Assembly: GCF_004309735.1 (NCBI RefSeq) | Contig: NZ_SIXC01000008.1 | Coordinates: 146,182-183,281, forward strand | Reading direction: 5' to 3' | From: Desulfovibrio legallii | GTDB taxonomy: Bacteria > Desulfobacterota > Desulfovibrionia > Desulfovibrionales > Desulfovibrionaceae | Length of the DNA: 37,100 nt | Shown here: positions 7,869 to 30,713 of the stretch, in pieces | Position numbering within the stretch: position 1 is the first letter of the stretch | How the letters are laid out: every line of letters begins with the position of its first letter | The notes under the pieces: generated by a model | Told to the model about the DNA's origin: nothing | Databases searched by the model: none | The model's input: the letters and a program-made list of their open reading frames with translations, nothing else | Program-made: the position numbers and the translations under genes

Positions 7869-9779
7869 CTATCCCTCCGCCCTTACAACGCATTCCAGAA
7901 TTTCCAAGCCCTTTTCCTCAATCCGTTTCACGGATGCCTCCGCATCGCGGGCCGCGTCCAGCTCCGCCATTTCTTCCAGTATGGGCAGGTTTCCGGAGCG
8001 TTCGCGCTCCGCGAGAAGCTTTTCTTCCATGCTCATGCCGTCCTTGCCGATGCCCTGTTCCCGCAGCAGGGCTTGCGCCGGACTCTCGCCCGCGGGGCGC
8101 GCGATGTCGGCCGGGGTCGGGGTGTATGTCTCCGGCGCGGCTACGGAGTAGTTGACGGGCGCGGCCGCGTCGTATATCATTTTTGTGTCCTGAAGAGCAG
8201 AAAGTCGTGCAGCTGCCAAAGGCGGCGAGGCCTCGCCGTCGACCGTATGGGGGATTGTGCGCCCCTCCTGGACATTTTTTGAAGACAGGCTCTTTCCGAG
8301 CCTGTCTTTTTTTTCGGGGTACAGACTCTTGACCACCGTTTCGCCGGTGGCGGGGTTGACGCTGATGAAGCCCACGTCGGCCATGTCGCCGCGCAGGCGC
8401 ACCAGCGCCTGAATGTGCGGAAACCGCGTCCCGGAGGCAAAATCCGCATCCCCGTGAAATACGGCCAGCAGCAGTTCCGCCAGTCGGTCGGCGCTCATGC
8501 CTTCCTGCAATATGCGCTTTTCGTACAGCTTGCGGGCAACGCGGGCCGGAATGATCAGGCTGTCGCCTTCTATAAGCGGCACGCCTTCCTCCGTGCGTAT
8601 GGCGTTGAGCGCTGCCCGGTAGTCCGGCCGCAGCGGGCCGAAGTCCACATCCGTATAGCTCCCGAACTCCAGAGCGTGCGCCAGGGCTTCCACGCGCAGC
8701 CGTCCCTCCACAGCGCCCCCCCGCAGCAGCGGCCCCACGTCCACGTCCCGGCCTGCGGCCACATCCCGCACGGCCCATTCAAAGGCCTGCAGCAGGTCGG
8801 CCCGGTCGCGTCCGTGGATATTCATGCGCACCCATGCCGCCGGGCTGACAAGCTCCCCGCCGGGGACGCGCGCGGCATCGCCGGAACGGTTTTCTTTCAG
8901 AGAAGTTGAGAAATCTTCGGAAAGAAACCGGTCGGGAACGGCGTCAAAACTGGCTTGCGGCGGGGCAGTACGCCCATCGGTGGGCACGTTGCCGCGCCGC
9001 CTCCCCGACAGATACCTGTGCAGTCCAGCCCCCGCAGCCCCCAGCAACCCGCCCAGCGCCGCACCCATGGCGGCGTCCAGCGACAGGTCGGAGAATCCCA
9101 GATCTTCGCCGCGCGCGCTCAAGGAGGGGAAAACGATAGCGTCGGTGGCCAGGGCTCCGGCCGCCCCTTCCACGGCACCGGCGCGCGCTCCGGCCAGCAG
9201 CGCCGTGCGCAGCCCGGCGTTGGCCGTCTTGCCTGCGGCCGCCAGCCCGCCTCCGAAGGGGATCAGGTTCACCGGGTCTGGCAAACCGCCCAGCATGCCC
9301 GCAAAAAATCCCGCCGCCTGACCGCCCAGGCCGTAATGCTCCGCGCCCGTGGTCAGCGTCACGTCCCGCGCCCGACGCTCGTCAAAATCTTCGGCGTAGA
9401 TGCGGGCGCGTTCTTCGGTAAAATTTTCGCGCCAGGCGATGCCCTTGCGGTAGTACCGGTTGTTTTCGTTCCAGTCCTCTTTTCCGATGAAGGCCGGGGC
9501 CGTGCCCTTCTGCGGCAGCAGCCTTTGCGGCACGGGCGCTCCGGCCCATTCTCCCGTCTCCGTCGCGGCTTCCGTCAGTGCGGGCGCATAGTCGCCGTAG
9601 GCCGCGCGCTCCGCGTCCTGTACGCGTTTTTCGGTCAGAACCACGCTGGCGGTGGTGTGGTCAAAACCTTCCGCCACATGTTCGCCCAGATACTGGCCAA
9701 AGGTCGGCTCCGGGGTCTGGAACCGCAGCACGGCGTCCGGCGTGCTCATAAAATCGCGGCGTACTCCTGGCAACAGCAT
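7869..9779 (-). CDS. Internal virion protein with glycine-rich hydrophobic core
   Basis: A 636-residue phage protein between two other large helical internal proteins. Residues of about 150-255 are glycine/alanine-rich and hydrophobic (GGQAAGFFAGMLGGLPDPV, AAMGAALGGLLGAAGAGL), a pattern common in podoviral ejection proteins that cross the cell envelope. The rest is charged and helical, ending in an acidic Glu-rich tail. The ATG overlaps the upstream stop (TGATG) and has a GGAGAG site 7 bases upstream; the later Met-11 has a less well placed site. The coding strand contains an A8 tract followed at once by a 10-bp hairpin at 8283-8314 (see findings). Function is inferred from context. Confidence 0.7.
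   Translation of the reverse strand: MLLPGVRRDFMSTPDAVLRFQTPEPTFGQYLGEHVAEGFDHTTASVVLTEKRVQDAERAAYGDYAPALTEAATETGEWAGAPVPQRLLPQKGTAPAFIGKEDWNENNRYYRKGIAWRENFTEERARIYAEDFDERRARDVTLTTGAEHYGLGGQAAGFFAGMLGGLPDPVNLIPFGGGLAAAGKTANAGLRTALLAGARAGAVEGAAGALATDAIVFPSLSARGEDLGFSDLSLDAAMGAALGGLLGAAGAGLHRYLSGRRRGNVPTDGRTAPPQASFDAVPDRFLSEDFSTSLKENRSGDAARVPGGELVSPAAWVRMNIHGRDRADLLQAFEWAVRDVAAGRDVDVGPLLRGGAVEGRLRVEALAHALEFGSYTDVDFGPLRPDYRAALNAIRTEEGVPLIEGDSLIIPARVARKLYEKRILQEGMSADRLAELLLAVFHGDADFASGTRFPHIQALVRLRGDMADVGFISVNPATGETVVKSLYPEKKDRLGKSLSSKNVQEGRTIPHTVDGEASPPLAAARLSALQDTKMIYDAAAPVNYSVAAPETYTPTPADIARPAGESPAQALLREQGIGKDGMSMEEKLLAERERSGNLPILEEMAELDAARDAEASVKRIEEKGLEILECVVRAEG
8283..8314 (+). terminator. 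Intrinsic terminator on the strand opposite an internal virion gene
   Basis: Read on the + strand, a perfect 10-bp stem (AGACAGGCTC with GAGCCTGTCT), a TTTCC loop and a run of eight T form a canonical Rho-independent terminator. It lies wholly inside the coding sequence of the 636-residue minus-strand protein, where it encodes KKDRLGKSLSSK. It would stop antisense transcription entering the late operon. On the sense strand the same bases form an A8 slippery tract followed by a hairpin. Confidence 0.6.
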
Positions 9780-12385: not shown

Positions 12386-12412
12386 AGAGCAAGTTCAAAG
12401 CGAACTTGCTCT
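12386..12412 (-). repeat. Perfect 11-bp hairpin at the stop codon of the nozzle gene
   Basis: AGAGCAAGTTC and GAACTTGCTCT form an uninterrupted 11-bp stem around a 5-nt loop, starting inside the TAG stop of the nozzle gene. No T-run follows on the minus strand, so it is not a standard terminator. It may stabilise the upstream mRNA end or be a processing site. Confidence 0.6.
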
Positions 12413-14918
12413 AATTGTTGATTGTGACTTCGGGAATGATCATGAGCAGGCTTACAGGCAATACCCCGTCTCCGTAGAACCTGACGCGCGTATCTTCGTT
12501 CCAGCCGCCGGGCAGGGGCAGCCGCACGCTGCCCGTAAACAACGGGGGCGGCGAATCCATGAAGTCCTGGCCGTCGCGGAAGCTGATGGTATAAGCGCTC
12601 CCGTTGCCCCCCGCCCGCGTGTAGGACACGCCGCCAGTCATGTAGAACCGGGCAATCACCGCGTTCACCAGGGCCTTTTTGCCCTGCATGGCCCCGCGCG
12701 GGCTGATGCCTTCGATGCGCATGGGCGCTACGATCCAGCGGTAGGGCAGACCGACCACGATATGTGATGCGGGGGCGTCCAGCGTAATGCTGCCGTTGTT
12801 CACCGCCAGCAGGGGATGTTCCGCGCCGTCGGCCAGTACGGCCACCGTATACCCCTCCAGATGTTCCAGCCCGTGCAGCGTCCGTACAGGCTCACCCGTG
12901 TAGAAAAGGCCGCAGTCCACATACATGGGCGGAACGGCGGACTCCGTCAGGGAGACCGTTTTTTCCGAAGAGAGAGGATCCCGGTATGCTTCTACCAGTG
13001 AAAACCGCACCATGCCGTTTTTGCCGCGCAGCGCGGCAACGTCCGTATCGTCTTCCGTCGTGTAGGGGCAGACCTCGGGGCACCAATTCAGCCCGCTTGC
13101 GTCCGCAATCTCGCTCAGGGGCTTTGAGGTAGGATGCCATATAATACTGATCCCGTTTTTACCGCGCCCGCCCGCGCCCGCGTCCGTTCCGTCCACCGGC
13201 CCGGCATCGCCCACGCCGCCTGCGCCGCCGTAGGCATTGCTCGAAGCGGCAAGGCCCTGATACACGGATTCACTGGTGACAGCGCACTGTCCCTGCCCGG
13301 TTGCTCCGGCTGCTCCCGGCGATCCGTCGCCGACGACGCCTCCGGCCACGCTCCGCCCAAGTATGGAGGTCGCGCCCCCGGGGTTGCCCAAGGCATCCCC
13401 CGGACCGGTGGGTTCGGCTCCCCCTTCGCCTACGGTAAAAGGAACGGGAACTCCGGCCGCAAGATACGCGTAAAACTGCAAGCGTTCCCCGGCCCCGCCG
13501 CCAGTCCCCCCATCGCCGCCGCGAGCGTCTGCAACGGCGTCCACGCCCGGATCCTGGCTGGCGCGCCAGCTTGTGACGGAAAATCCTTCGTTGGAAATAG
13601 CGCCGCTCGCGCCGCCGCCTACGATGTCAACGGCATAGGTGCCGTTTACCGAGGCGGCGAACGTTCCTGATTCCCTGAAATCGTGAGGAGGGCCGGAGTC
13701 GTTGTTGACGGATGCAACGGCCTGCACCCGGTCCCAGGGCGCGGCCATCATTTCGATGCACGGCCCGTTTCTGCGTTCCACCAGCAACCAGGTGGCCGTA
13801 TAACCATCCGCCGGGATGCAGCATACGGACCTGACAAGGCCCTTTGTCTCGAACCGGTGCCAGCCTACCACTTCCTGTTGCTTGAGCCATGTGCATCCGG
13901 CCATGGTGCCGTCCTGCATCACGCACCAGATGATGCCGTCCGGGTTCTGATAGTTGGCTATGGACACGATGCCCGGCTGCGTCAGATGCTCGGCCAGCAG
14001 GCTGAGGTCTTCCACGATGTGCGAATCGGACCCATAGTCGTAGGTAAGGCTATACAGCCGCCGGGAATCGGCGCTTACGGCCACGATGGAGGCTCCCACA
14101 GAAAGCGGCGTAACCGAGGTGCTGCCGTAGTTGCTGTTCAGCACGGCCTGTATGTTTTCCGGCGTCACGCTCCCGTTTCCGTCCCCGATGAGCCATTCTC
14201 CGCCGCCAGTCCCTGCGATAAGCCGCTTGCCAGGGACAAACCAAAGAATGTCGTTGACCTGTTCGCTGACCAGGCTGAAGGACATGGACGCGTCCTGCGT
14301 GTCCGAATCGTCTTCTTCCTGCGCCGTGGGGCCGCTGAAGTTCTGAAAATCGCCGGTACGGCTTGCCCATAGCTTGTTGGGTTTGCCGGGCACGCCGCCC
14401 AGCCACAGTCGCTGCTGAAAAAACGTGCCGCAGCCTGGCCATGTGTCGTCGCCCCATTCCGCAGGTTGCGCCGTAAATTGCACGACCTGCAGTTCAAACG
14501 TGTCCACGCCCGTGCGCATCAGCTTTCTGGGGGCCGTGGAAGCGCAAAACATATACATGACGTCCGCAGCCTGGCAGAAAGACAGGCCCATATGCTGCTC
14601 CACCGACCACGGCGTATTGATATCCTTGCCCGCCAGATAGCCGCCGTCCCGGAAAAACCGGATCTTGCCCGGGCACAGCTCCAGAACGTAGGCCTGCGTC
14701 GAACTGAAGACGAAGGGCAGCAGCCTGGAACGGGGAGACCCCGCCTGGGCCACATAGTATGTTCCCATGCGCCGTACGGCGGGGCCGTGCGGCATCAGCG
14801 ACATGTTCACAAGCTCGGAACAGGCGCTCCCATACTTGGCAAGATCCGCCCGCCCATACAGGCGCGGGCTCCATTCGCCGCCGGTAAAACTGGTAATAGC
14901 AGGGGTCGCGGTACTCAT
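12411..14918 (-). CDS. Tail tube nozzle protein (T7 gp12 / tail tubular protein B-like) with glycine-rich insert
   Basis: An 835-residue protein whose N-terminus (SFTGGEWSPRLYGRADLAKY, then VNMSLMPHGPAVRRMGTYYV) is the recognisable start of podoviral tail tubular protein B, which forms the tip of the short tail. A beta-propeller-like core continues to about residue 415. Residues of about 425-590 are then very glycine-rich with collagen-like steps (GSPGAAGATGQG) and GGGASGAISNEG, after which nozzle-like sequence resumes (VDCGLFYTGEPVRTLHGLEH and YRWIVAPMRIEG). The glycine-rich part looks like an inserted surface or adhesin-type domain. The gene follows the gp11-like adaptor by 37 bp. Confidence 0.85.
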   Translation of the reverse strand: MSTATPAITSFTGGEWSPRLYGRADLAKYGSACSELVNMSLMPHGPAVRRMGTYYVAQAGSPRSRLLPFVFSSTQAYVLELCPGKIRFFRDGGYLAGKDINTPWSVEQHMGLSFCQAADVMYMFCASTAPRKLMRTGVDTFELQVVQFTAQPAEWGDDTWPGCGTFFQQRLWLGGVPGKPNKLWASRTGDFQNFSGPTAQEEDDSDTQDASMSFSLVSEQVNDILWFVPGKRLIAGTGGGEWLIGDGNGSVTPENIQAVLNSNYGSTSVTPLSVGASIVAVSADSRRLYSLTYDYGSDSHIVEDLSLLAEHLTQPGIVSIANYQNPDGIIWCVMQDGTMAGCTWLKQQEVVGWHRFETKGLVRSVCCIPADGYTATWLLVERRNGPCIEMMAAPWDRVQAVASVNNDSGPPHDFRESGTFAASVNGTYAVDIVGGGASGAISNEGFSVTSWRASQDPGVDAVADARGGDGGTGGGAGERLQFYAYLAAGVPVPFTVGEGGAEPTGPGDALGNPGGATSILGRSVAGGVVGDGSPGAAGATGQGQCAVTSESVYQGLAASSNAYGGAGGVGDAGPVDGTDAGAGGRGKNGISIIWHPTSKPLSEIADASGLNWCPEVCPYTTEDDTDVAALRGKNGMVRFSLVEAYRDPLSSEKTVSLTESAVPPMYVDCGLFYTGEPVRTLHGLEHLEGYTVAVLADGAEHPLLAVNNGSITLDAPASHIVVGLPYRWIVAPMRIEGISPRGAMQGKKALVNAVIARFYMTGGVSYTRAGGNGSAYTISFRDGQDFMDSPPPLFTGSVRLPLPGGWNEDTRVRFYGDGVLPVSLLMIIPEVTINN

Positions 14919-14955: not shown

Positions 14956-15525
14956 CTAACCCATTTTGGCCGCCGCCCACTCCGAACGGCCCCACTGTGC
15001 GGGATCCTCCGCGTCCATGGCGTCCAGATGCCGGGAGTCACGCAACTTAAGCGCGTAGCGCTCTTCAAGGCCCTGCACAAGGGCTGTTGAGGCGCTGGAC
15101 GCAAAGGCCAGGGTTGCCGCCAGCTTCAGCGCCATGCACTGCACAAGCGCCGGGTCGTAGGACGCGGGATCTTCCAGCCGCCGCACATAGGCGATGGACA
15201 TTTGCGGCTCGTCGGCCAGCAGATGGGGTCCCTCCACGCGGCAGCGCGCGCCTTCCGGGCAGGTGGATACCAGGCGCAAAAAATCCGGCGGCAGCGCGTA
15301 GGAATATGCGAAGCCGAACGTCGGAACGGAGCCCGTTCGTATGAGGGCCGTGCGGGCACATGCGCACTTCCACACGTGCGACCGCAGCACTTCATCGCGC
15401 ACCATAGGCCACGCGCGGCGCACCCGCTCCGCCAGGGGGGAGGCCTGCGCCGCATCAGTCAGGGCTTCTTCGCCGATGTAGTCCAAAGCCAGGTTGAATA
15501 TGTGTATCAGCCCGTTGACCGCCAT
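14956..15525 (-). CDS. Head-to-tail adaptor (T7 gp11 / tail tubular protein A-like)
   Basis: A 189-residue protein with the features of podoviral gp11-type adaptors: an N-terminal helical core (ALDYIGEEALTDAAQASPLA, then VRDEVLRSHVWKCA), a central beta section (YALPPDFLRLVSTCPEG) with the usual PPDFLR step, and a C-terminal helical part with a conserved Ala-rich helix. The adaptor ring joins portal and nozzle. It sits between the capsid region and the nozzle gene, as in T7. The previous stop lies 7 bp before the start. Confidence 0.85.
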   Translation of the reverse strand: MAVNGLIHIFNLALDYIGEEALTDAAQASPLAERVRRAWPMVRDEVLRSHVWKCACARTALIRTGSVPTFGFAYSYALPPDFLRLVSTCPEGARCRVEGPHLLADEPQMSIAYVRRLEDPASYDPALVQCMALKLAATLAFASSASTALVQGLEERYALKLRDSRHLDAMDAEDPAQWGRSEWAAAKMG

Positions 15526-15531
15526 GGCCGC

Positions 15532-15807
15532 CTAGTCCTTCACCACTATCAGCCGCACGTCTTCGCGCGCCGCCAGAATGACCACGTCGCCGCTGCGCAT
15601 GCCGTAAGCCCGCCGCGCGTCGTCCCACCAGCCGGGACCGCAGGCGGGCGGCCAGTCGCCGTCGTGCGTGTACAGCCACAGCCCCCGCGCCGCCTGCCGC
15701 AGACAGTCACGGTTGAAGACCGCCGCGGCATCCGCCGTTTGGTCCGCAGCGGCAGCGGCAGCAACCGGAGAAGCGGGGATTTCAGTGTCGTTGTTCTTTT
15801 TGCTCAT
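15532..15807 (-). CDS. Small virion-region protein of unknown function
   Basis: A 91-residue protein with a low-complexity Ala-rich N-terminus (PVAAAAAADQTADAAA) and a compact Trp-rich C-terminal half (RGLWLYTHDGDWPPACG, GWWDDARRAYG). It has a GGAG site 7 bases before the ATG and is the first gene after the double terminator behind the capsid gene. The position suggests a small head or head-completion protein. I do not recognise a family. Confidence 0.65.
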   Translation of the reverse strand: MSKKNNDTEIPASPVAAAAAADQTADAAAVFNRDCLRQAARGLWLYTHDGDWPPACGPGWWDDARRAYGMRSGDVVILAAREDVRLIVVKD

Positions 15808-15868
15808 GTCTTGCTCCAGTTTTTAGGGCGCTTTCCGGCTGTTGCCAGTAAACTTGAGAATTGGAAGT

Positions 15869-15944
15869 AAAAAAACGCCCCCGTGTGAAAACAACATCTC
15901 ACACGGGGGCGTAAAAAAGCCGGGGCGATTCGCATCGCCCCGGC
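15869..15944 (-). terminator. Tandem Rho-independent terminators after the capsid gene
   Basis: On the minus strand two hairpins follow each other. The first (15919-15944) pairs GCCGGGGCGAT with ATCGCCCCGGC and is followed by six T. The second (15876-15911) has a 13-bp stem of CGCCCCCGTGTGA with its complement and is followed by seven T. They lie about 90 bp past the capsid stop and before the adaptor-side genes. No good new promoter was seen between them and the next gene at 15807, so the tail genes probably depend on read-through or antitermination. Confidence 0.9.
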
Positions 15945-16035
15945 CGGTTGTGTTGCACTAAACCTTTCGGAGTAATCTTCTTATGTGAAAACCGCGTTCC
16001 TAGTCAACCTCCCGGTCTCCGCCTCCGGGCGCTGC

Positions 16036-16893
16036 TTACGCTGCCTTCTTGTTGAGCGCGTTGATGCGCACCACGCCCAGGTCATCAATGCGCACGGCCC
16101 CTGCGCTGATCATGTTGTTGCAGAGATAGGCGACCTTTTCCGGCACATAGTTGATTTCGCTGACGACCCCCTGGCCGCCTTCGGCCAGGCCCAACGCTGT
16201 CTTGTGGAAGAGATAGCAGCCGGTATAGGCCGCCGCCGTGCCCGCGCCCGTAACCGGCAGGCCCGTGTGCATAAGCCAGATGATGTTCAGCCAGCGCTTG
16301 GCTTCGGTCCCGCGCAGCCAGACCGGCGCGTCCGTACCCACATAGTCGCTTTTGGCGAACTGGTCGATCAGCAACAGCTGGTTCCACTGTCGCGGCCCCA
16401 CCACGGCATAACGCTGCCCGTCGTCGGGCACCTCCCCTTCGTTGAACAGGGCAAAGGCGTCCATGACAAGATCGAGGGTCATTATGCCGGTGCCGTCGCC
16501 CATCACCTGCCCGGCGGGCAGGGCCGCCCCGGCGGCTCCAATGATCAGCGAGTCCACCTTGCGCCCGATGGCCGCGGCCCCGCTCCAGGTCAGGGCCCGG
16601 CGCTCGTCATGCTTGATCTTGTATTCATCCAGCTTGTCCACATAGTCCGGCGCGTACCAGTCTTCCAGCGTGGCCGTGGCCTGGCTGTGGTCCACATCCA
16701 TGGGCACCACGGCGGCGTGGCGGGTTTTCTGCGTGGCCTCGCCCTTGCCGATCTTCGTAAACTTGTCCGAACTGCCGACCACGCCGGGGCGCGTGCGCAC
16801 CAGGTTGCGCAGTTTGCTGGCCCCCTGCTGGTAGGCCATAAAAACTTCCGCTTCGTACTGCGTGACGAAGGCGGCGGAAACGTCGTTAGGCAT
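16036..16893 (-). CDS. Major capsid protein
   Basis: A 285-residue protein in the capsid slot of a T7-like gene order, directly downstream of the scaffold. The sequence matches the pattern of the podoviral capsid family with an N-terminal helix (FVTQYEAEVFMAYQQGASKL), a strand-rich section with TRHAAVVPMDVDHSQ, the EDWYAPDYVDKLDEYKIKHD spine-helix region and a late WLRGTEAKRWLNIIW P-domain-like stretch. A GGAG site lies 8 bases before the start. A 139-bp AT-richer gap upstream may contain its own promoter, and tandem terminators follow; together they would allow separate high expression. Confidence 0.85.
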   Translation of the reverse strand: MPNDVSAAFVTQYEAEVFMAYQQGASKLRNLVRTRPGVVGSSDKFTKIGKGEATQKTRHAAVVPMDVDHSQATATLEDWYAPDYVDKLDEYKIKHDERRALTWSGAAAIGRKVDSLIIGAAGAALPAGQVMGDGTGIMTLDLVMDAFALFNEGEVPDDGQRYAVVGPRQWNQLLLIDQFAKSDYVGTDAPVWLRGTEAKRWLNIIWLMHTGLPVTGAGTAAAYTGCYLFHKTALGLAEGGQGVVSEINYVPEKVAYLCNNMISAGAVRIDDLGVVRINALNKKAA

Positions 16894-17952: not shown

Positions 17953-18264
17953 TCATTCAAAGTTTCCCGGAATCGTGCCGTATATGTCTTCGCCGCGCCG
18001 TTCAGGGCGGCGTTCTTCCTTCAGGGCCATGCGCAGCAGTTCGAGCAGCACGCTGCGGCGGCCCTCGCGCCAGGCCATGTCCTTGGCGCTAAATGGCCCA
18101 TATTGTGGGCGCAGACAGTCCGAAAGCGTCCCCATGAGAGTTAATCCGTCTTCGCTGAAAACGATGCGCCTGACGGCGTTCTCGCGCGTTTTCGCATCGG
18201 GGCGCGGAGCCTCCCCGTGCAAGGCGTCGAACAGCCGCGCCCGCCAGTATGTCCTGTCGCTCAT
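17953..18264 (-). CDS. Bbp19-like small structural-region protein
   Basis: A 103-residue protein carrying the pattern of the small phage protein Bbp19 of Bordetella phage BPP-1: an N-terminal helical segment, FSEDGLTLMGTLSDCLRP, and then AWREGRRSVLLELLRMAL near the C-terminus. The function is not established in this family. The start overlaps the portal stop by 4 bp (ATGA), so the two are coupled. Its presence links the head module with BPP-1-type podophages. Confidence 0.7.
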   Translation of the reverse strand: MSDRTYWRARLFDALHGEAPRPDAKTRENAVRRIVFSEDGLTLMGTLSDCLRPQYGPFSAKDMAWREGRRSVLLELLRMALKEERRPERRGEDIYGTIPGNFE

Positions 18265-19964
18265 CTGCCTTTCTCCTGTTCCGTTGCGGCTGAAGCGAGG
18301 GCGGGCCCGGCCTGTTCGGCCATCCGCGCCAGCGCCGCCGTTTGCGCCTGTTGCGCGCGCTCCTGTCGGTTTTTTTGCACCTTGCGCTCGTCCAAAAGGT
18401 ATTTGCGCGGGTAGCCGAACAGCTCGCGACTGTCGCGGGCCGCCGAATTGAAATCAAAGTTGTCCATGATCGTGGGGTCCGCCTGCGTGAACCCCGCCAG
18501 ATACTGCAACGCCAGGCCGAACGCCTCCGCCGCGGACTGTCGCTGCGCCCGCGCCAGCGGCGAAACATAGCGCGCCCGCAGCTCACGCCCGGCCAGCCCA
18601 GGCGGCACGGCAAAGGCCCCGGCCCGCAGCAGCAGCATGAAGACCCTGTCCGTCAACGGCCCCAAAAATTCGCTTTCCAGCCGCCCCAGCACCGGTCCCA
18701 GCACAAGGTTCTGCTTGCGCTCGCGGGCCATCACCTCCGTGGCCGTCATCTGCGGGCCGCCCGCCATCTGTATGCGGTCGTTCAAAAATGCCCCGCGCAC
18801 GGCCCCGCGCCGTTTTTCCAGCACGGCCTCGGCCACGTCCAGGCGAAAATCCACAGGCAGCTGCATAAGCCCGCGCCCTTGCTGCAGCGCGTCCGGGCGG
18901 ACATAGGTTATGCCCCCGGCTCCTGAGCGTATGCGGCCCACCACGCTGTCGTCCGCCGCCAGCAGGGGCGGATCGGCCAGTTTCTCGGCCCCCACCAGCT
19001 GCGCCTGGGCCACGCGGTTCAGCACCCGCATGTCGGGCAAACACACATGCCCAGGGCCGCGCCCGTAGATTTCGCCGCTGCGCTTGCTCCAACGCGGGCA
19101 CATGTACGGCAGTTCGTCAAAGCCCCCGCGCGAAAGGCAATGCCCGCCTTCCGTCTCGTAATACAGCGAGGCAAAAGGTTTTTCCGCCTTGCCGCCCCGG
19201 TTGCGGGCAACGTCGCTCCGCACGCTTTCCGGCAGCCGTGAAAGCGGGCACACCAAGTGCGAAACGCCCACGCGCGCACCGGGGGCCGTGCCGTTCTCCA
19301 CCGCGTTCCGCACCTTTTCGGAAACAGCGTCCTTGCCGAATTCCTCAACCAGCGCGGCCGGGCTCATGTTCCAGCGCCGCAGCACCGAATCCACGCGGCC
19401 CCCCGCGTTTTCGTCCAGGGCGCACTGCGACGGGTTTATCGCCCGAAAACACGGCCGGTTCCCCCGGTCTTCAACCAGAAACACAGCCCAGCCAAAACAT
19501 GCCAGGTCAAGGTAAAACTGGTTCACTTCCTGATGAAAGCCCCCCTCGTGCGAGGCAAGCGCCGCCGTTACCGCCGCTTGCGCCGATTCCATGAAGGCGG
19601 AAATTTCCGCGTCATCCCGGTCGGCATCGCCATCCAGCTCAAGGCTCAGCCACTCCGTGGCCGGGTTGGTCAGCATGCCGTGCAGGGCCGCGGCCAGGGT
19701 CAGCGCAGCGTCTTCCGGCGTGGAATCCCATATTTTCTGCCGTCCGTCGTCGCCGGGCGAAGGCCCCATGCCGCCGAACCCGGCGCGATCCGGCGCGGCG
19801 TAACGCGCAATTTCGTCAAGCTGCGCGTTCACGGCAGTGCGGCTGTCCCACAGGGCGTTGCACCAGGTCAGCAGGGGAGCGGGCAGCGGCCCGCGCCTTT
19901 CCTCTGCCGTCGGGCTGGCGTCGCCCAGCTGATCCGGCGGGATATCGTTTCGTCCGCCGCGCAT
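18261..19964 (-). CDS. Portal protein (podoviral head-tail connector)
   Basis: A 567-residue protein of the T7/BPP-1-type portal family. Support comes from NALWDSRTAVNAQLDEIARY at residues of about 36-55, the LTNPATEWLSLEL step, the NPSQCALDENAGGRVDSV region, and the clear stem/crown motif TATEVMARERKQNLVLGPVL followed by LESEFLGPL. The portal forms the dodecameric ring at one capsid vertex through which DNA is packed and released. The C-terminal 40 residues are Gln/Ala/Arg-rich and helical. It is preceded by a small conserved protein and followed by the Bbp19-like gene with a 4-bp overlap. Confidence 0.9.
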   Translation of the reverse strand: MRGGRNDIPPDQLGDASPTAEERRGPLPAPLLTWCNALWDSRTAVNAQLDEIARYAAPDRAGFGGMGPSPGDDGRQKIWDSTPEDAALTLAAALHGMLTNPATEWLSLELDGDADRDDAEISAFMESAQAAVTAALASHEGGFHQEVNQFYLDLACFGWAVFLVEDRGNRPCFRAINPSQCALDENAGGRVDSVLRRWNMSPAALVEEFGKDAVSEKVRNAVENGTAPGARVGVSHLVCPLSRLPESVRSDVARNRGGKAEKPFASLYYETEGGHCLSRGGFDELPYMCPRWSKRSGEIYGRGPGHVCLPDMRVLNRVAQAQLVGAEKLADPPLLAADDSVVGRIRSGAGGITYVRPDALQQGRGLMQLPVDFRLDVAEAVLEKRRGAVRGAFLNDRIQMAGGPQMTATEVMARERKQNLVLGPVLGRLESEFLGPLTDRVFMLLLRAGAFAVPPGLAGRELRARYVSPLARAQRQSAAEAFGLALQYLAGFTQADPTIMDNFDFNSAARDSRELFGYPRKYLLDERKVQKNRQERAQQAQTAALARMAEQAGPALASAATEQEKGR

Positions 19965-24307: not shown

Positions 24308-24411
24308 GACAAAGCCTCCGTACAGCTGTGATGCCATACGAAGGCCGGGCGCGCGGGGGCGGTGCGTGACGCCCCCGCGGATGGGGGGGCGTATTCTGTG
24401 TATACCGTTTT
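24308..24411 (-). promoter_or_regulatory. Leader and probable promoter of the late operon
   Basis: The 104-bp gap between the Mor-type gene and the muramidase gene is the only sizeable break before the lysis and virion genes. It contains an imperfect dyad, GCGTAT-7-ATACCG (about 24388-24407), and then a GC-rich hairpin pairing GCGGGGGCG with CGCCCCCGC (about 24352-24381) without a T-run. Mor-type activators bind dyads upstream of weak promoters in Mu, so the dyad is a plausible activator site. No clear -35/-10 pair was seen, which would fit an activator-dependent promoter. Confidence 0.4.
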
Positions 24412-24771
24412 TCAGAACAGTTTCAACTGCCGCGTTTTTTGCGGCCGCATGGAGGCCTTGACCACCTGCACATAGCGCCGCGTCACTCCAAGGGTCATGG
24501 CGATCTTGCACAGGCTTTCGCCCTGCTGCAGCAGGGCTATGATGTTTTTCTTTTTCACCTGCACGGGGGCGTCGCGCGGCAGGTCAATCTTCATGCCGCC
24601 ATATTCCCCGCACAGCGCCGCCAGCGCGTGCATGCCCAACAGTTTTTCCAGTTCATGCCCCGTGTAGGGGCGCTCCGGAACATACACGCGCGCGCCGCCA
24701 TACTTGTCCAGCAGGGCCCGGGCGGAAAAGTCGCCCAGAACCTGGTTTAATTCAGCCGCCGATACATACAT
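24412..24771 (-). CDS. Mor/C-type transcription activator
   Basis: A 119-residue protein of the Mor family. The dimerisation part has ELEKLLGMHALAALCGEYGG and the short strand MKIDLP (residues 60-65), followed by a basic segment and a C-terminal helix-turn-helix (GESLCKIAMTLGVTRRYVQV, residues of about 84-103). Mu Mor and C switch on middle and late genes. This single copy lies at the end of the early region, just ahead of the late genes, so it probably controls the lysis and morphogenesis operon. A GGAG site precedes the ATG and overlaps the GemA stop. Confidence 0.85.
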   Translation of the reverse strand: MYVSAAELNQVLGDFSARALLDKYGGARVYVPERPYTGHELEKLLGMHALAALCGEYGGMKIDLPRDAPVQVKKKNIIALLQQGESLCKIAMTLGVTRRYVQVVKASMRPQKTRQLKLF

Positions 24772-25543: not shown

Positions 25544-25617
25544 CGTCTTCTCCCGTTGGCTGCTCGTCAGGCCGGAGCCGCCACGCCCCGGCGACCGCCC
25601 CGCAGGGCGGTTTCGCA

Positions 25618-25785
25618 TTAATCTTCAGAGTCCGGGGCGACGTTGGTCTCGCCCGTGAGCCACATGTGCATGTCCGTGATCCCTTGTTCGTAAGTCATTC
25701 CCGCGAACTTTGTGCCGTTATCTATGCCCTCGGCAGCCCAGTTCAGCACGCGATCTATTTCCTGCTGTGTGCGTACAATCGGCAT
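25618..25785 (-). CDS. 55-residue acidic phage protein
   Basis: A short gene, MPIVRTQQEIDRVLNWAAEG and on to a terminal PDSED, with GGGGGA 5 bases before its ATG and a TAA stop. Codon use is as in its neighbours, and the reading frame fits exactly between the HU gene and the next gene. The protein is acidic, with one probable helix (residues 7-20), and resembles no family I recognise. Operon position suggests a small early regulator or host-takeover peptide. Confidence 0.6.
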   Translation of the reverse strand: MPIVRTQQEIDRVLNWAAEGIDNGTKFAGMTYEQGITDMHMWLTGETNVAPDSED

Positions 25786-27172: not shown

Positions 27173-27793
27173 TTATTCCTCCATTTTTGTATTTGCGGTG
27201 CTGTCTTCATCCTCAAACCGCGTCCACAGCACGCCCAGGTGGGCGCGTATGCGCTCCCGCACGGCGGGCTGGTCCGGGTTTTGCGTCAGCATGCAGGTGA
27301 TCAGCCCAGCCGCCGCGGCCTTTTCCTGCTCATAGGGGTCCGGCAGGTCGCGCGGCGGCCAGGGCGTTTCCCGCTGCTCCCTGGCCTGCGAGGTGGTGCG
27401 GTACAGCAGCGTGTTGCCCTTGCGCCCGCAGCGGACCACAAAGCCCTCTTCTTCCAGCCAGGGCACATACCTGTCCGCCATGCTTCGGTCCGTTCTGGCC
27501 AGCCGGGCAACGTCGGCACGGCTCCAGCTCGGCGGCTGCGTGCGGATGATCCGCCACAGGCGGCGGTATGTTTCACCCTGGCGGCGCGGCGCTGCCCCGA
27601 TCCAGCGAAATTCGCCCCGGCCTGTCTTCTCCACCTCCGCCTGCTTGATCAGTTGCTCCAGGCGGCCGCGCAACACCTGCTTCTGGCTTTCGTTCGTCAG
27701 GCCGAATATGCCCGCCAGTTGCGGCACCGTGACCGGCGCTGCGCCAAAGGCCTTCAGCGCGGTGCGCAGTTGCGCCATGCTTTCGCTGCTCAT
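27173..27793 (-). CDS. Winged-helix-like early protein
   Basis: A 206-residue protein with two probable winged-helix segments: VTVPQLAGIFGLTNESQKQV with RLEQLIKQAEVEKTGRGEFR (about 20-65), and PSWSRADVARLARTDRSMAD with WLEEEGFVVRCGRKGNTLLY (about 88-135). It may bind DNA or act as an adaptor in transposition or regulation. The start at 27793 overlaps the stop of gene B (ATGA), and GGGGG precedes it. Similar proteins follow the B gene in some Mu-like phages, but I cannot name the family. Confidence 0.65.
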   Translation of the reverse strand: MSSESMAQLRTALKAFGAAPVTVPQLAGIFGLTNESQKQVLRGRLEQLIKQAEVEKTGRGEFRWIGAAPRRQGETYRRLWRIIRTQPPSWSRADVARLARTDRSMADRYVPWLEEEGFVVRCGRKGNTLLYRTTSQAREQRETPWPPRDLPDPYEQEKAAAAGLITCMLTQNPDQPAVRERIRAHLGVLWTRFEDEDSTANTKMEE

Positions 27794-28503
27794 GCCAGCC
27801 CCCACTTGCCCTTTTTGTGCTGTTGCAGGGTCGCCCGCGCCATATCGCCGCTGACCTCCCCGCTGCCCACGGCCCGCGCCGCCGATTCCAGCGACAGCAC
27901 GGCATTGTGTACCCGGCGGAAATTGCCCTTGGTCTGGGCATGCACCAAGGCGCAGGCTTCGGTTGACAGGCGCAGGTCCGCCGCTTCCATGGCGTACAGG
28001 GCCACGTCCGGCAGCGTAATTTTCTGAAAGGAAATGCGGAATTCATCGGGGATGCGGTCAATGATGCGGCTGCGCGCTTCAAGGCGCGAGGGCAGGCCCT
28101 GCTCGCCCAGCAAAATGACCGGGCAGCCCGTGAGGTCGTAGATGTCGCGCAAGTCTTCAATACGCCGCACGTCCAGGCGGTCGGCTTCATCCACAAAAAT
28201 GGGTTCCCTCGAATTTTCCAGAGCGTGGACGAGTTCCATCTTGCAGCGGTGCGCGCCGTAGGGGCGGCAGGCCTTGACCTCAAAGCACAGATCCTGCAAA
28301 AACCCGTGCTGCGTCACGCCTTCCAGGGCGCGCAGGTAGTAGCCCGCTTCCGCGTACAGCGCGCGGGCGGCCTCGGTTTTGCCGCACCCGGCTTCGCCCC
28401 ACACGGCAACCATGCCGGGGCGTCCCCGCTCCACGTCGCGAGCGTTGGCAACAACCTTCCTCAATTGTTGCACATTGCTTGTTTCTATGAATACCGTTTT
28501 CAT
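27790..28503 (-). CDS. Transposition protein B (MuB-like AAA+ ATPase)
   Basis: A 237-residue ATPase with Walker A GEAGCGKT (residues 36-43), Walker B PIFVDEAD with D105-E106, a sensor-type stretch CPVILLGEQGLPSRL and an arginine-rich SRIIDRIPDEFR. MuB-type proteins bind target DNA, give target immunity and stimulate transposase A. The N-terminal HTH region of MuB is missing, as in the shorter B proteins of B3-like phages. It overlaps transposase A by 4 bp and the next gene by 4 bp. Confidence 0.9.
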   Translation of the reverse strand: MKTVFIETSNVQQLRKVVANARDVERGRPGMVAVWGEAGCGKTEAARALYAEAGYYLRALEGVTQHGFLQDLCFEVKACRPYGAHRCKMELVHALENSREPIFVDEADRLDVRRIEDLRDIYDLTGCPVILLGEQGLPSRLEARSRIIDRIPDEFRISFQKITLPDVALYAMEAADLRLSTEACALVHAQTKGNFRRVHNAVLSLESAARAVGSGEVSGDMARATLQQHKKGKWGLA

Positions 28504-30698
28504 CCCGCTTGCTCCTTTGAAGGGGTGTCATACAGGCGCAGCAATTGTTCGTAGCGGCGTCCCGTGGTGGTCTGGTATTCCCTGCCTGCCTCATAGCTGG
28601 CCATGAAGGCGGCATCCGCCGCATTCAGGTCCATCCCGTCCTCATGACGCAGGCGGAAAAGGACATCGTATTTCTCAAGTTCACTGGAAAAATAGGCGGG
28701 CAGCGTGTAAACGGGGGCGGCTGACGCCTTGCGCCGTTCAAGCGCCGCCTGCACGGCTCCGTCGATGGCGCGGCGCTCCGCCTCGCTGACCTGGGGGGTG
28801 GACGCAGGCCCGATCCGATCGCGGCCGTTGGCATGGCCCGTGCCCTGAACCACTACCGGCTGGCGGCGTTGGGCCACTCCCCGCATGTAGGGCAGTTCCA
28901 GCAGGGTTTCGCCCGCCGCCCCCGAGATGCGTTCGGCCAGATCACGGGTCTGCTTGCGCAGCCTGGCGGCCTTTTTGTTGGCCTCGGAAATCCGCCGCAT
29001 GTCCGCGTCGTCGCCCAGCACGACGGCCAGGGGATTGACCGTTGCCACCGGGCGCGCCGTGCCCAGAAACCGCTGGCCGTCGTAAAGGTAGATTTCCCGC
29101 ATGTCCGCATAGCTGTAGTAGGCCGTCAGCGGTTTGTTGACGCCGTAGAGCGCGTCAGACTCGTATTCCAGCCCCAGCATGCGCACCCGGCAGCGCGATG
29201 GCGTGACCTCGCGCCGGTACAGGAACTGCCGTGCCAGGTCGGTCTTTTCCTCTTCGCTGAAGCCCGGCCCGCGCCCGGCGTCAAAGACATCCCAGGGGGT
29301 GGAGCCGGGGCGTGTCGGGTGCGGCTGCTGGGCCTTCCACCGGGCGTATTCCATGACCAGGCGCTGCACATCGGCCACCGTGGGCACATAGCCGCTTTGC
29401 TGCCGGGCCAGCCATGTTTCGTTGCGCCGCAGATGCGCGGGCTTGTCGGCGATGTCTCGCCCGACGTACGAATCCATGAGCACGGCGGCCTGCCGGTCAA
29501 AATCGCCCCACCAGCGTTCAATCACCTTGGTGCGCGCCTGATAGGGCGCGGAGTGCTGCACATGGATGCCCAGGCGCAGGTACAGGCCGTCAAACTCTTC
29601 CACGTCCGCGTCTTTGTTCTCGAAAAACTTGTTTTTGAAGGCCTGCCCGTTGTCGATGTACACGGCGCGCGGCCGCTTCCCGAGCTTGAGAATCGCCCGG
29701 TGCAGAGAAGAGGCGATGGCCTGCGTGTTTTCGCTGACCATGATTTCGAAGGAAAGAAACATGCCGCTGGCCCAGTCCAGCCAGCCCACCAGCGTCATGC
29801 GGCAGGGCTTGCCCGTATCCGGATTGATGACCGTGAAATTCATCTTGTGGCCGTCCGCCACCAGCACGTCGCCCGGCTCCAGAATGCGGCTGTCGCGCGT
29901 CATGTAGGGCAGCGCGTTGTCCGTGGTCGCTTTGTTCCCTTCGCGCATCCAGACGACCACGTCGTGGTGCAGGCTGTCGTAGCGCTTGAAAAACCGCATG
30001 ACGGAACTGTAAGAGGGGGCGGGCAGCCCCTGCTTTTCAAGGGCCGCGCCCGTGGCCATCCAGGCCAGATGCACGCTGGGCTTGCGGTCGTGCAGATAGG
30101 CCTTGAGAAACAGCGTTTCCGCCGCTTCGCCCAGTTGGCCCGCGCCCTTGGCCCCGCCCCGCGTCCATGCGCCGCGCCTGTCGGCCAGCGCGGCAAAGCC
30201 GTCCCCGTCGCGCACGGATTTTTCCCAGCGGTAGAGGGTCTTTTCGGACACAACGGGTACGGCTTCGTGTACCCATGCGGGCAGCAGCAGGCCCGCGTTG
30301 TAGGCAACCACAACGGCCTTTGAGGCTTCGCGGGCCGAACCGCCTTCGGCCTTTGCGCGCTCCATGCACGCGCGCCACTCAAGCACGATGCGATGCCGCG
30401 CGCGGGCCATGTCCAGTTTTTTGTCCGGCACGGCGGCAAGGGCCGCCGGTCTGGCGGCCGGGTTGGCGGCAGGCAGGGGCGCTTCCGCGCACGCAAGCGC
30501 CGCCTGCGTGGCCAGCGCCGCGCGGATGGCCTGCACCGTCTCGGCGGGCATGGACGACACAATCCACAGCTTGCCACCGCCGCGTCCCGCGCGGGGCAGA
30601 GATTGCCAGCTTTCGCGTTTGGCGCGGATCTGTATTGCTCGATCCGTAACTGCCAGCAGCGCAGCGATTGCTTGAGTGGAGTATGTTTCGGTAGCCAT
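28500..30698 (-). CDS. Transposase A (MuA-like DDE recombinase)
   Basis: A 732-residue transposase. The N-terminus has the Mu-type DNA-binding domain (YSTQAIAALLAVTDRAIQIR), then a second helical DNA-binding region (about 95-185, SEKTLYRWEKSVRDGDGFAA). The catalytic core shows the DDE triad as D282 in LVADGHKM, D349 in VYIDNGQAFKN and E394 in KVIERWWGDFD, with spacing close to MuA. A Mu-type C-terminal domain follows, and the tail may contact B. It cuts phage ends and joins them to target DNA for both integration and replication. Met at 30698 is preferred because GAGAAG is properly spaced for it and touches the alternative ATG at 30704. Confidence 0.93.
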   Translation of the reverse strand: MATETYSTQAIAALLAVTDRAIQIRAKRESWQSLPRAGRGGGKLWIVSSMPAETVQAIRAALATQAALACAEAPLPAANPAARPAALAAVPDKKLDMARARHRIVLEWRACMERAKAEGGSAREASKAVVVAYNAGLLLPAWVHEAVPVVSEKTLYRWEKSVRDGDGFAALADRRGAWTRGGAKGAGQLGEAAETLFLKAYLHDRKPSVHLAWMATGAALEKQGLPAPSYSSVMRFFKRYDSLHHDVVVWMREGNKATTDNALPYMTRDSRILEPGDVLVADGHKMNFTVINPDTGKPCRMTLVGWLDWASGMFLSFEIMVSENTQAIASSLHRAILKLGKRPRAVYIDNGQAFKNKFFENKDADVEEFDGLYLRLGIHVQHSAPYQARTKVIERWWGDFDRQAAVLMDSYVGRDIADKPAHLRRNETWLARQQSGYVPTVADVQRLVMEYARWKAQQPHPTRPGSTPWDVFDAGRGPGFSEEEKTDLARQFLYRREVTPSRCRVRMLGLEYESDALYGVNKPLTAYYSYADMREIYLYDGQRFLGTARPVATVNPLAVVLGDDADMRRISEANKKAARLRKQTRDLAERISGAAGETLLELPYMRGVAQRRQPVVVQGTGHANGRDRIGPASTPQVSEAERRAIDGAVQAALERRKASAAPVYTLPAYFSSELEKYDVLFRLRHEDGMDLNAADAAFMASYEAGREYQTTTGRRYEQLLRLYDTPSKEQAG

Positions 30699-30713
30699 CA
30701 GCATCTTCTCGAT

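Follow-up and report, generated by a model that had tools for sequence, protein, structure and literature searches.

The terminator T-phi of phage T7 follows the capsid gene and precedes the adaptor and nozzle genes, in the interval from gene 10 to gene 11. It consists of a late-strand hairpin and the U-run behind it, and serves the phage's own polymerase. The T7 virion contains about 415 copies of the capsid protein against 12 of the adaptor and 6 of the nozzle. How a phage without its own polymerase obtains capsid proteins by the hundred but about a dozen tail proteins from one late operon is a question seldom raised beyond T7. One phage that bears on this question is the temperate podovirus epsilon15. 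It lacks PF00940, the profile of single-subunit RNA polymerases, and has an annotated terminator between its head genes and the gene that precedes the adaptor. Its GenBank record (NC_004775) annotates, as submitted by the depositor, a rho-independent terminator between gp9 and gp10, the adaptor being gp11, and a boundary hairpin of -18.8 kcal/mol was found in our gap scan.

The window studied here, i.e. the whole stretch of 37,100 nucleotides that was analysed, carries a prophage of Desulfovibrio legallii. Its late operon reads on the minus strand in the order terminase, portal, scaffold-sized gene, capsid, 91-aa ORF, adaptor, nozzle, internal virion proteins and fibre (Table 1). Upstream of this operon are the genes for a MuA-type transposase, an AAA ATPase, Gam, a HU-like protein, GemA, a Mor-family activator and a GH108 endolysin, and a CI/S24 repressor gene lies on the opposite strand. 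Since homologues of MuA, MuB (assigned by its place), Gam, GemA and Mor are combined with T7-like head and tail genes, the element can be described as a Mu-like prophage with a T7-like particle. A profile search for PF00940, with T7 as a positive control, found no single-subunit RNA polymerase in the host genome, in agreement with the sequence-only reading, which had seen no phage RNA polymerase gene. The Mor-family protein is a candidate activator of the late operon, which would then use the host RNA polymerase.

Table 1 Features of the prophage discussed in the text, with positions in the window
Feature	Positions	Strand	Matches and remarks
Nozzle / tail tubular B gene	12411..14918	(-)	phrog_376, E 2e-152
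Adaptor / tail tubular A gene	14956..15525	(-)	phrog_394, E 2e-41
91-aa ORF	15532..15807	(-)	weak match (E 3e-4 to 9e-3) to the small gene between capsid and adaptor in relatives
228-nt gap, capsid stop to 91-aa ORF	15808..16035	(-)	fold z -7.0
T2 U-run, 7 U	15869..15875	(-)	
T2, second intrinsic terminator hairpin (predicted)	15876..15911	(-)	GC stem, 15-16 pairs, 6-nt loop
T1 U-run, 6 U	15913..15918	(-)	
T1, first intrinsic terminator hairpin (predicted)	15919..15944	(-)	GC stem, 4-nt loop
Major capsid protein gene	16036..16893	(-)	PF19821, E 6e-65; phrog_3437; stop codon 16036-16038
Portal, start of the head module	18261..19964	(-)	PF12236
Mor-family transcription activator	24412..24771	(-)	PF08765, phrog_836
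AAA ATPase	27790-28503		putative MuB, from gene place
Mu-type (MuA) transposase	28500..30704	(-)	phrog_310; PF09039, PF09299

A type II hammerhead ribozyme (RF02276, 73.5 bits, gathering threshold 37) is found in the Mu-like early operon at 25554-25618 (-), upstream of a small ORF and about 0.3 kb 5' of GemA. Directly behind the Mor-family gene, between it and the endolysin gene, a GC-rich hairpin (ACGCCCCCGCGG/GGGGGGGCGT, 24369-24392) has no U-run on the late strand, and neither does a near-perfect hairpin (AGAGCAAGTTC/GAACTTGCTCT, 12386-12412) between the nozzle gene and the next internal virion gene. On the plus strand, the stretch 8152-8309 holds a promoter-like match (TTGACG-17-TATCAT, 10/12) and, about 100 nt further on, a hairpin resembling a terminator with 8 T; both lie antisense within an internal virion protein gene and could specify a short antisense RNA. 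The host contig also bears a second nozzle homologue about 65 kb from the window (L326, an ORF of 828-829 aa, C8:70500-88000), which was set aside as a comparison locus for its different gene order and the lack of a strong terminator ahead of the nozzle homologue.

In the gap behind the capsid gene, two GC-rich hairpins, T1 and T2, follow each other, and on the transcribed strand a U-run comes immediately after each, as expected of intrinsic terminators. Their folding energies are -25.8 kcal/mol for T1 (closing pair counted) and -31.8 kcal/mol for T2 (closing A-U pair counted). A strict scan, in which the stem may hold at most one mismatch and a U-run is required, places them at the first two ranks of the whole window, both strands included. 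In that scan, scores of the d'Aubenton-Carafa type reach 39-50 for T1 and 35-47 for T2, varying with the stem cut, and the next-best score in the window is 15.8. When bulged hairpins are permitted and ranked by plain dG, T2 comes first and T1 fifth, with three bulged hairpins from coding sequences between them. Two strict-scan matches of -25 kcal/mol or lower were obtained in none of 200 dinucleotide shuffles of the window, and one such match in 3 of the 200. On the plus strand the U-tract of T1 is poor and that of T2 is absent, so the pair faces the late direction only. The two strong terminators claimed from the letters alone are confirmed, as predicted intrinsic terminators of the late strand behind the capsid gene.

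The parallel drawn with T-phi holds by position, with the T7 record as control. Nevertheless, T-phi is a single terminator with a score of 3.0 against 35-50 for the pair of the window, and T7 possesses the PF00940 polymerase that is missing here. Furthermore, the adaptor and nozzle genes do lie behind the terminators, as the same reading had it, but the 91-aa ORF, which it did not mention, comes first, a difference from T7. The epsilon15 terminator also differs from the pair, being a single hairpin located after two further head-side genes.

The explanation we favor, and consider reasonably probable, is that the pair acts as a tandem terminator between the head and tail genes, at which the host RNA polymerase mostly stops, and that its low read-through yields much head and little tail mRNA. 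Late transcription would start, probably with the help of the upstream Mor-family activator, and the host polymerase would traverse the terminase, portal and capsid genes. The majority of the polymerases would halt at T1 or T2, and a small read-through fraction would reach the 91-aa ORF and the adaptor, nozzle, internal virion and fibre genes. Capsid mRNA would be high and tail mRNA low, matching the needs of the virion, in the way of T-phi but with the host polymerase instead of a phage one. With a ratio of ~415:12:6, the T7 value, a read-through of a few per cent would be acceptable. Against this explanation, two strong serial terminators might stop nearly all polymerases and thereby starve the tail genes.

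Relatives of the capsid gene are present in 61 of 288 genomes of the family (own genome counted) and in IMG/VR contigs. The 84 rows obtained include 7 copies of the locus itself and 11 repeats under other locus numbers, which leaves 66 distinct relatives, many of them lone head clusters with no adaptor following; L005 (81% over 104 residues) was left out because its sequence stops inside the capsid gene. The sequence-only reading had named the same gap in related prophages as a check. Taken literally, between the capsid stop and the next gene, this check goes against it: three of the 66 relatives have a hairpin with a U-run, in each case weak (L028, -13.6; L067, -10.2; L073, whose capsid gene is split), and the others have none. 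Read up to the adaptor, it turns out better in part, as a strong boundary hairpin appears in 10 of the 13 nearer relatives counted, mostly one small gene later, and is absent from L003, L075 and L076. These 13 were taken from 19 nearer relatives with an adaptor, after setting aside L105 (same hairpin as L104), L054 and L074 (small gene and adaptor in one open frame), L102 and L103 (about 2 kb between capsid and adaptor), and also L108. The hairpin is situated behind a small gene, in the short gap before the adaptor, in L078, L020, L024, L069, L070, L071, L072, L104 and L106. L077 is the only nearer relative that shares the arrangement of the window, with the hairpin before the small gene, but there it lacks a U-run. 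The 91-aa ORF weakly resembles this small gene, so that the element precedes the gene in both the window and L077, and it is doubled in the window. The pair lies one gene earlier than the hairpin of most nearer relatives, which also counts against the favored explanation. In-frame TAG codons in the capsid genes of relatives were considered and rejected, being the ordinary terminal stop.

Capsid identity to the window is 75% in L003, 63-64% in L075/L076, 63% in L077 and 64% in L078. The closest testable relative, L003, has no boundary hairpin, and the same is true of three of the five closest testable ones (L003, L075 and L076). The absence from these three, a further point against the favored explanation, implies that the boundary function is dispensable, and its absence from the closest one that the element is gained and lost. 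The nearest relative found in terms of whole architecture is the G027 prophage (L078), with the same gene order, a Mor homologue, a transposase 52% identical encoded ahead of its capsid gene, and the capsid identity given above. Unlike the window, it has one hairpin (-38.1) between the small gene and the adaptor, followed by CTTTGCC and no long U-run.

The gap behind the capsid gene is far longer in the window (228 nt) than in L003 (-4), L078 (8), L075/L076 (21) and L077 (97). It could thus be a small insertion, scar or body (moron-like, or a short RNA gene) with no role in the balance of head and tail, an idea that we find highly improbable. The phage collection contains nothing similar to its DNA, and the 79 genomes of the genus returned the gap itself and two short matches to the T1 palindrome. 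If it were a short RNA gene, the promoter-like TTGACT-16-CATAAG at 16007-15980, a weak match (9/12) upstream of T1, would be its start and T1/T2 its end. Yet the -10 box of this match has no T at position 6, the stretch upstream of T1 folds no better than its shuffles (z -0.46), and the terminators would act on late transcription even in an insertion. Given that z value, a put-like processive antitermination RNA or leader ahead of T1 was also rejected. No known RNA family was found at the gap, and the exact T1/T2 patterns occur among the viral contigs solely in IMGVR_UViG_2899437737_000004, a contig that matches the window at 100% in its capsid, portal and nozzle regions.

Alternatively, the head operon could be ended completely by the pair, the tail operon having its own Mor-activated late promoter between T2 and the 91-aa ORF. 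Phage Mu has several activator-dependent late promoters. Here the upstream genes of the same strand include one for a Mor-family activator, serial terminators suggest a clean stop, and the 67 nt that separate T2 from the ORF offer room enough. Nevertheless, this scenario seems unlikely: a sequence scan of the stretch downstream of T2 (15808-15868) found no consensus promoter, with neither a -10 hexamer of 5/6 matches nor a sigma-70-type pair, and the gapless relatives L003, L075 and L076 leave no room for a promoter at this place. As Mor-type promoters need no -35 box, a Mor-dependent promoter could escape such a consensus scan.

A gap-by-gap scan of 20 annotated phages of T7 architecture found a strong boundary hairpin in 16 of them: T7 (T-phi, the positive control), Hodr, MEP301, SI2, CKB-S2, D105, 1.179, Baldr, HTVC100P, Skadi-4, HTVC204P, HTVC035P, YeP5, TPWB-05, PfDIW6 and epsilon15. 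None was detected at the head/tail boundary of HTVC010P, ZCVPP1, ct8d5349 and BcepC6B; L161 was excluded from the 20 because its capsid gene could not be distinguished in the annotation. PF00940 is missing from 19 of these records, T7 alone having it. The hairpin comes immediately after the capsid gene in T7, the Vibrio phages, YeP5, HTVC100P and HTVC204P. Over 19 records (1.179 being dropped as a near copy of D105), folding is better in capsid-to-adaptor gaps than in the others (median z -3.03 vs -1.69, p 0.017); without T7 and three pelagiphages the comparison is not significant (p 0.12), and the boundary gaps of SI2, CKB-S2 and PfDIW6 barely exceed their own composition (z -0.2, -1.2 and -0.7). 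The Vibrio phages D105, 1.179 and CKB-S2 resemble the window in having a hairpin and a T-run directly behind a related capsid gene of the PF19821 type and no PF00940. They differ from it in that the hairpin is single and weaker (-14 to -16 kcal/mol) and no small gene precedes the adaptor, and they are not known to be prophages. U-runs that score as terminators (d above 0) are also present in D105, 1.179, MT838907, L104/L105 and L106.

The boundary was then considered in viral contigs, using the best 80 loci of the MEP301 type and the best 80 of the pelagiphage type among the matches listed; the adaptor was located in 77 of the former and the small gene that precedes it in 58 of the latter. Within these best 80 listed of each type, a hairpin of -12 kcal/mol or lower lies ahead of the adaptor in 75 of 77 MEP301-type contigs and ahead of the small gene in 51 of 58 pelagiphage-type contigs. 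Counting distinct gaps of at least 25 nt in the same best 80 listed, the figures are 56/58 and 37/37, against 98/580 and 20/370 for shuffles of those gaps, and the 70 nt upstream of the capsid gene reach this threshold in 0/59 and 0/53 cases. Stem sequences vary between groups while the place is constant (best 80 listed each). No consensus structure was obtained with MAFFT/RNAalifold over the MEP301-type gaps (56 distinct sequences from the best 80 listed), since stems from one group cannot be aligned by sequence with those from another; the MEP301-type hairpin counts are independent of that alignment. Compensatory changes occur at 3 of the 14 pairs in one pelagiphage group, where 97.6% of cells are paired, the structure being drawn from the same alignment. 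A conserved stem-loop between the head genes and the pre-adaptor small gene, seen in L154 (2337-2386), L155 (2339-2386), L165 (2340-2386) and the pelagiphage-type contigs, combines a covarying stem with a constant apical part, GAAAGCGAGAGTGGAA, and no U-run; a comparison of five loci with Rfam gave nothing convincing (E up to 1).

Good U-runs (at least 5 T of 8) are scarce in this sample, with 7/59 MEP301-type and 3/37 pelagiphage-type distinct gaps among the best 80 listed of each. Most boundary hairpins elsewhere therefore need not be terminators, and their recurrence across phages may speak for the hairpin rather than for termination. Alternatively, the boundary hairpins could act chiefly after transcription, by protecting the 3' end of processed capsid mRNA or by shielding the next gene's ribosome site, with termination as a secondary effect. 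The lack of a good U-run in most relatives (counted among the best 80 viral contigs listed of each type) points in this direction, as does the position of their hairpin, about 20 nt before the adaptor start and beside its ribosome site; the compensatory changes around the constant apical part of the pelagiphage stem do so too. Nevertheless, a pure stability element requires neither a U-run nor an orientation, whereas the hairpins of the window have perfect U-runs of 6 and 7 and face the late direction only, and we regard such a role as quite unlikely for them. As U-runs are mostly poor elsewhere, actual termination has good support in the window and in only a minority of the other phages. The shared trait may be an RNA structure with several modes of action, from mRNA protection to termination, the window standing at the terminator end.

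The frequency of strong hairpins at this boundary means that the tandem terminator of the window is an extreme case of a wider pattern rather than a one-off. It can be tentatively proposed that T7-architecture phages that depend on the host polymerase generally retain a switch-point of structured RNA between the head and tail genes, conserved in position and free to change in sequence, which would fix the proportion of head and tail expression with no dedicated polymerase. On this still doubtful proposal, its forms could range from the tandem terminators of the window, through the single ones of the Vibrio phages and epsilon15, to the hairpins without U-run of the MEP301 type and the pelagiphages. 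Phages of these types are among the most abundant in the sea and in fresh water. If the proposal is true, a single small RNA element, predictable in its place, would be open to testing, comparison and use in many phage groups. Its clearest form as a terminator would be that of the window, where Mu-like replication genes are combined with a T7-like particle. T7 was already known to have a terminator after its capsid gene, and one is annotated in epsilon15. The new points are the doubling of the terminator, its location before the small gene, its occurrence in a phage of Mu-like type and T7-like structure, and a count by which boundary hairpins are the usual state in such phages without a polymerase of their own. 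No account of this pattern was found in the literature searched, mostly non-subscription and including parts of PMC4802629 and PMC12724379. Overall, the sequence-only reading is partly supported.

T7-like head clusters, one and sometimes two per genome, are also found in 35 genomes of the genus g37 (which includes Pseudodesulfovibrio) and in many of g24 and g36. In the clusters read from these three genera the adaptor does not follow, and in L018 host genes do. In all seven head-cluster genomes tested, the nozzle gene is either 38-340 kb distant or located on a different contig, and in G231 (L328, L329) a separate nozzle gene stands beside fibre and structural genes. The splitting and wide sharing of these T7-like modules are suggestive of a domesticated gene transfer agent; one reported for D. 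desulfuricans is mentioned in PMC12724379.
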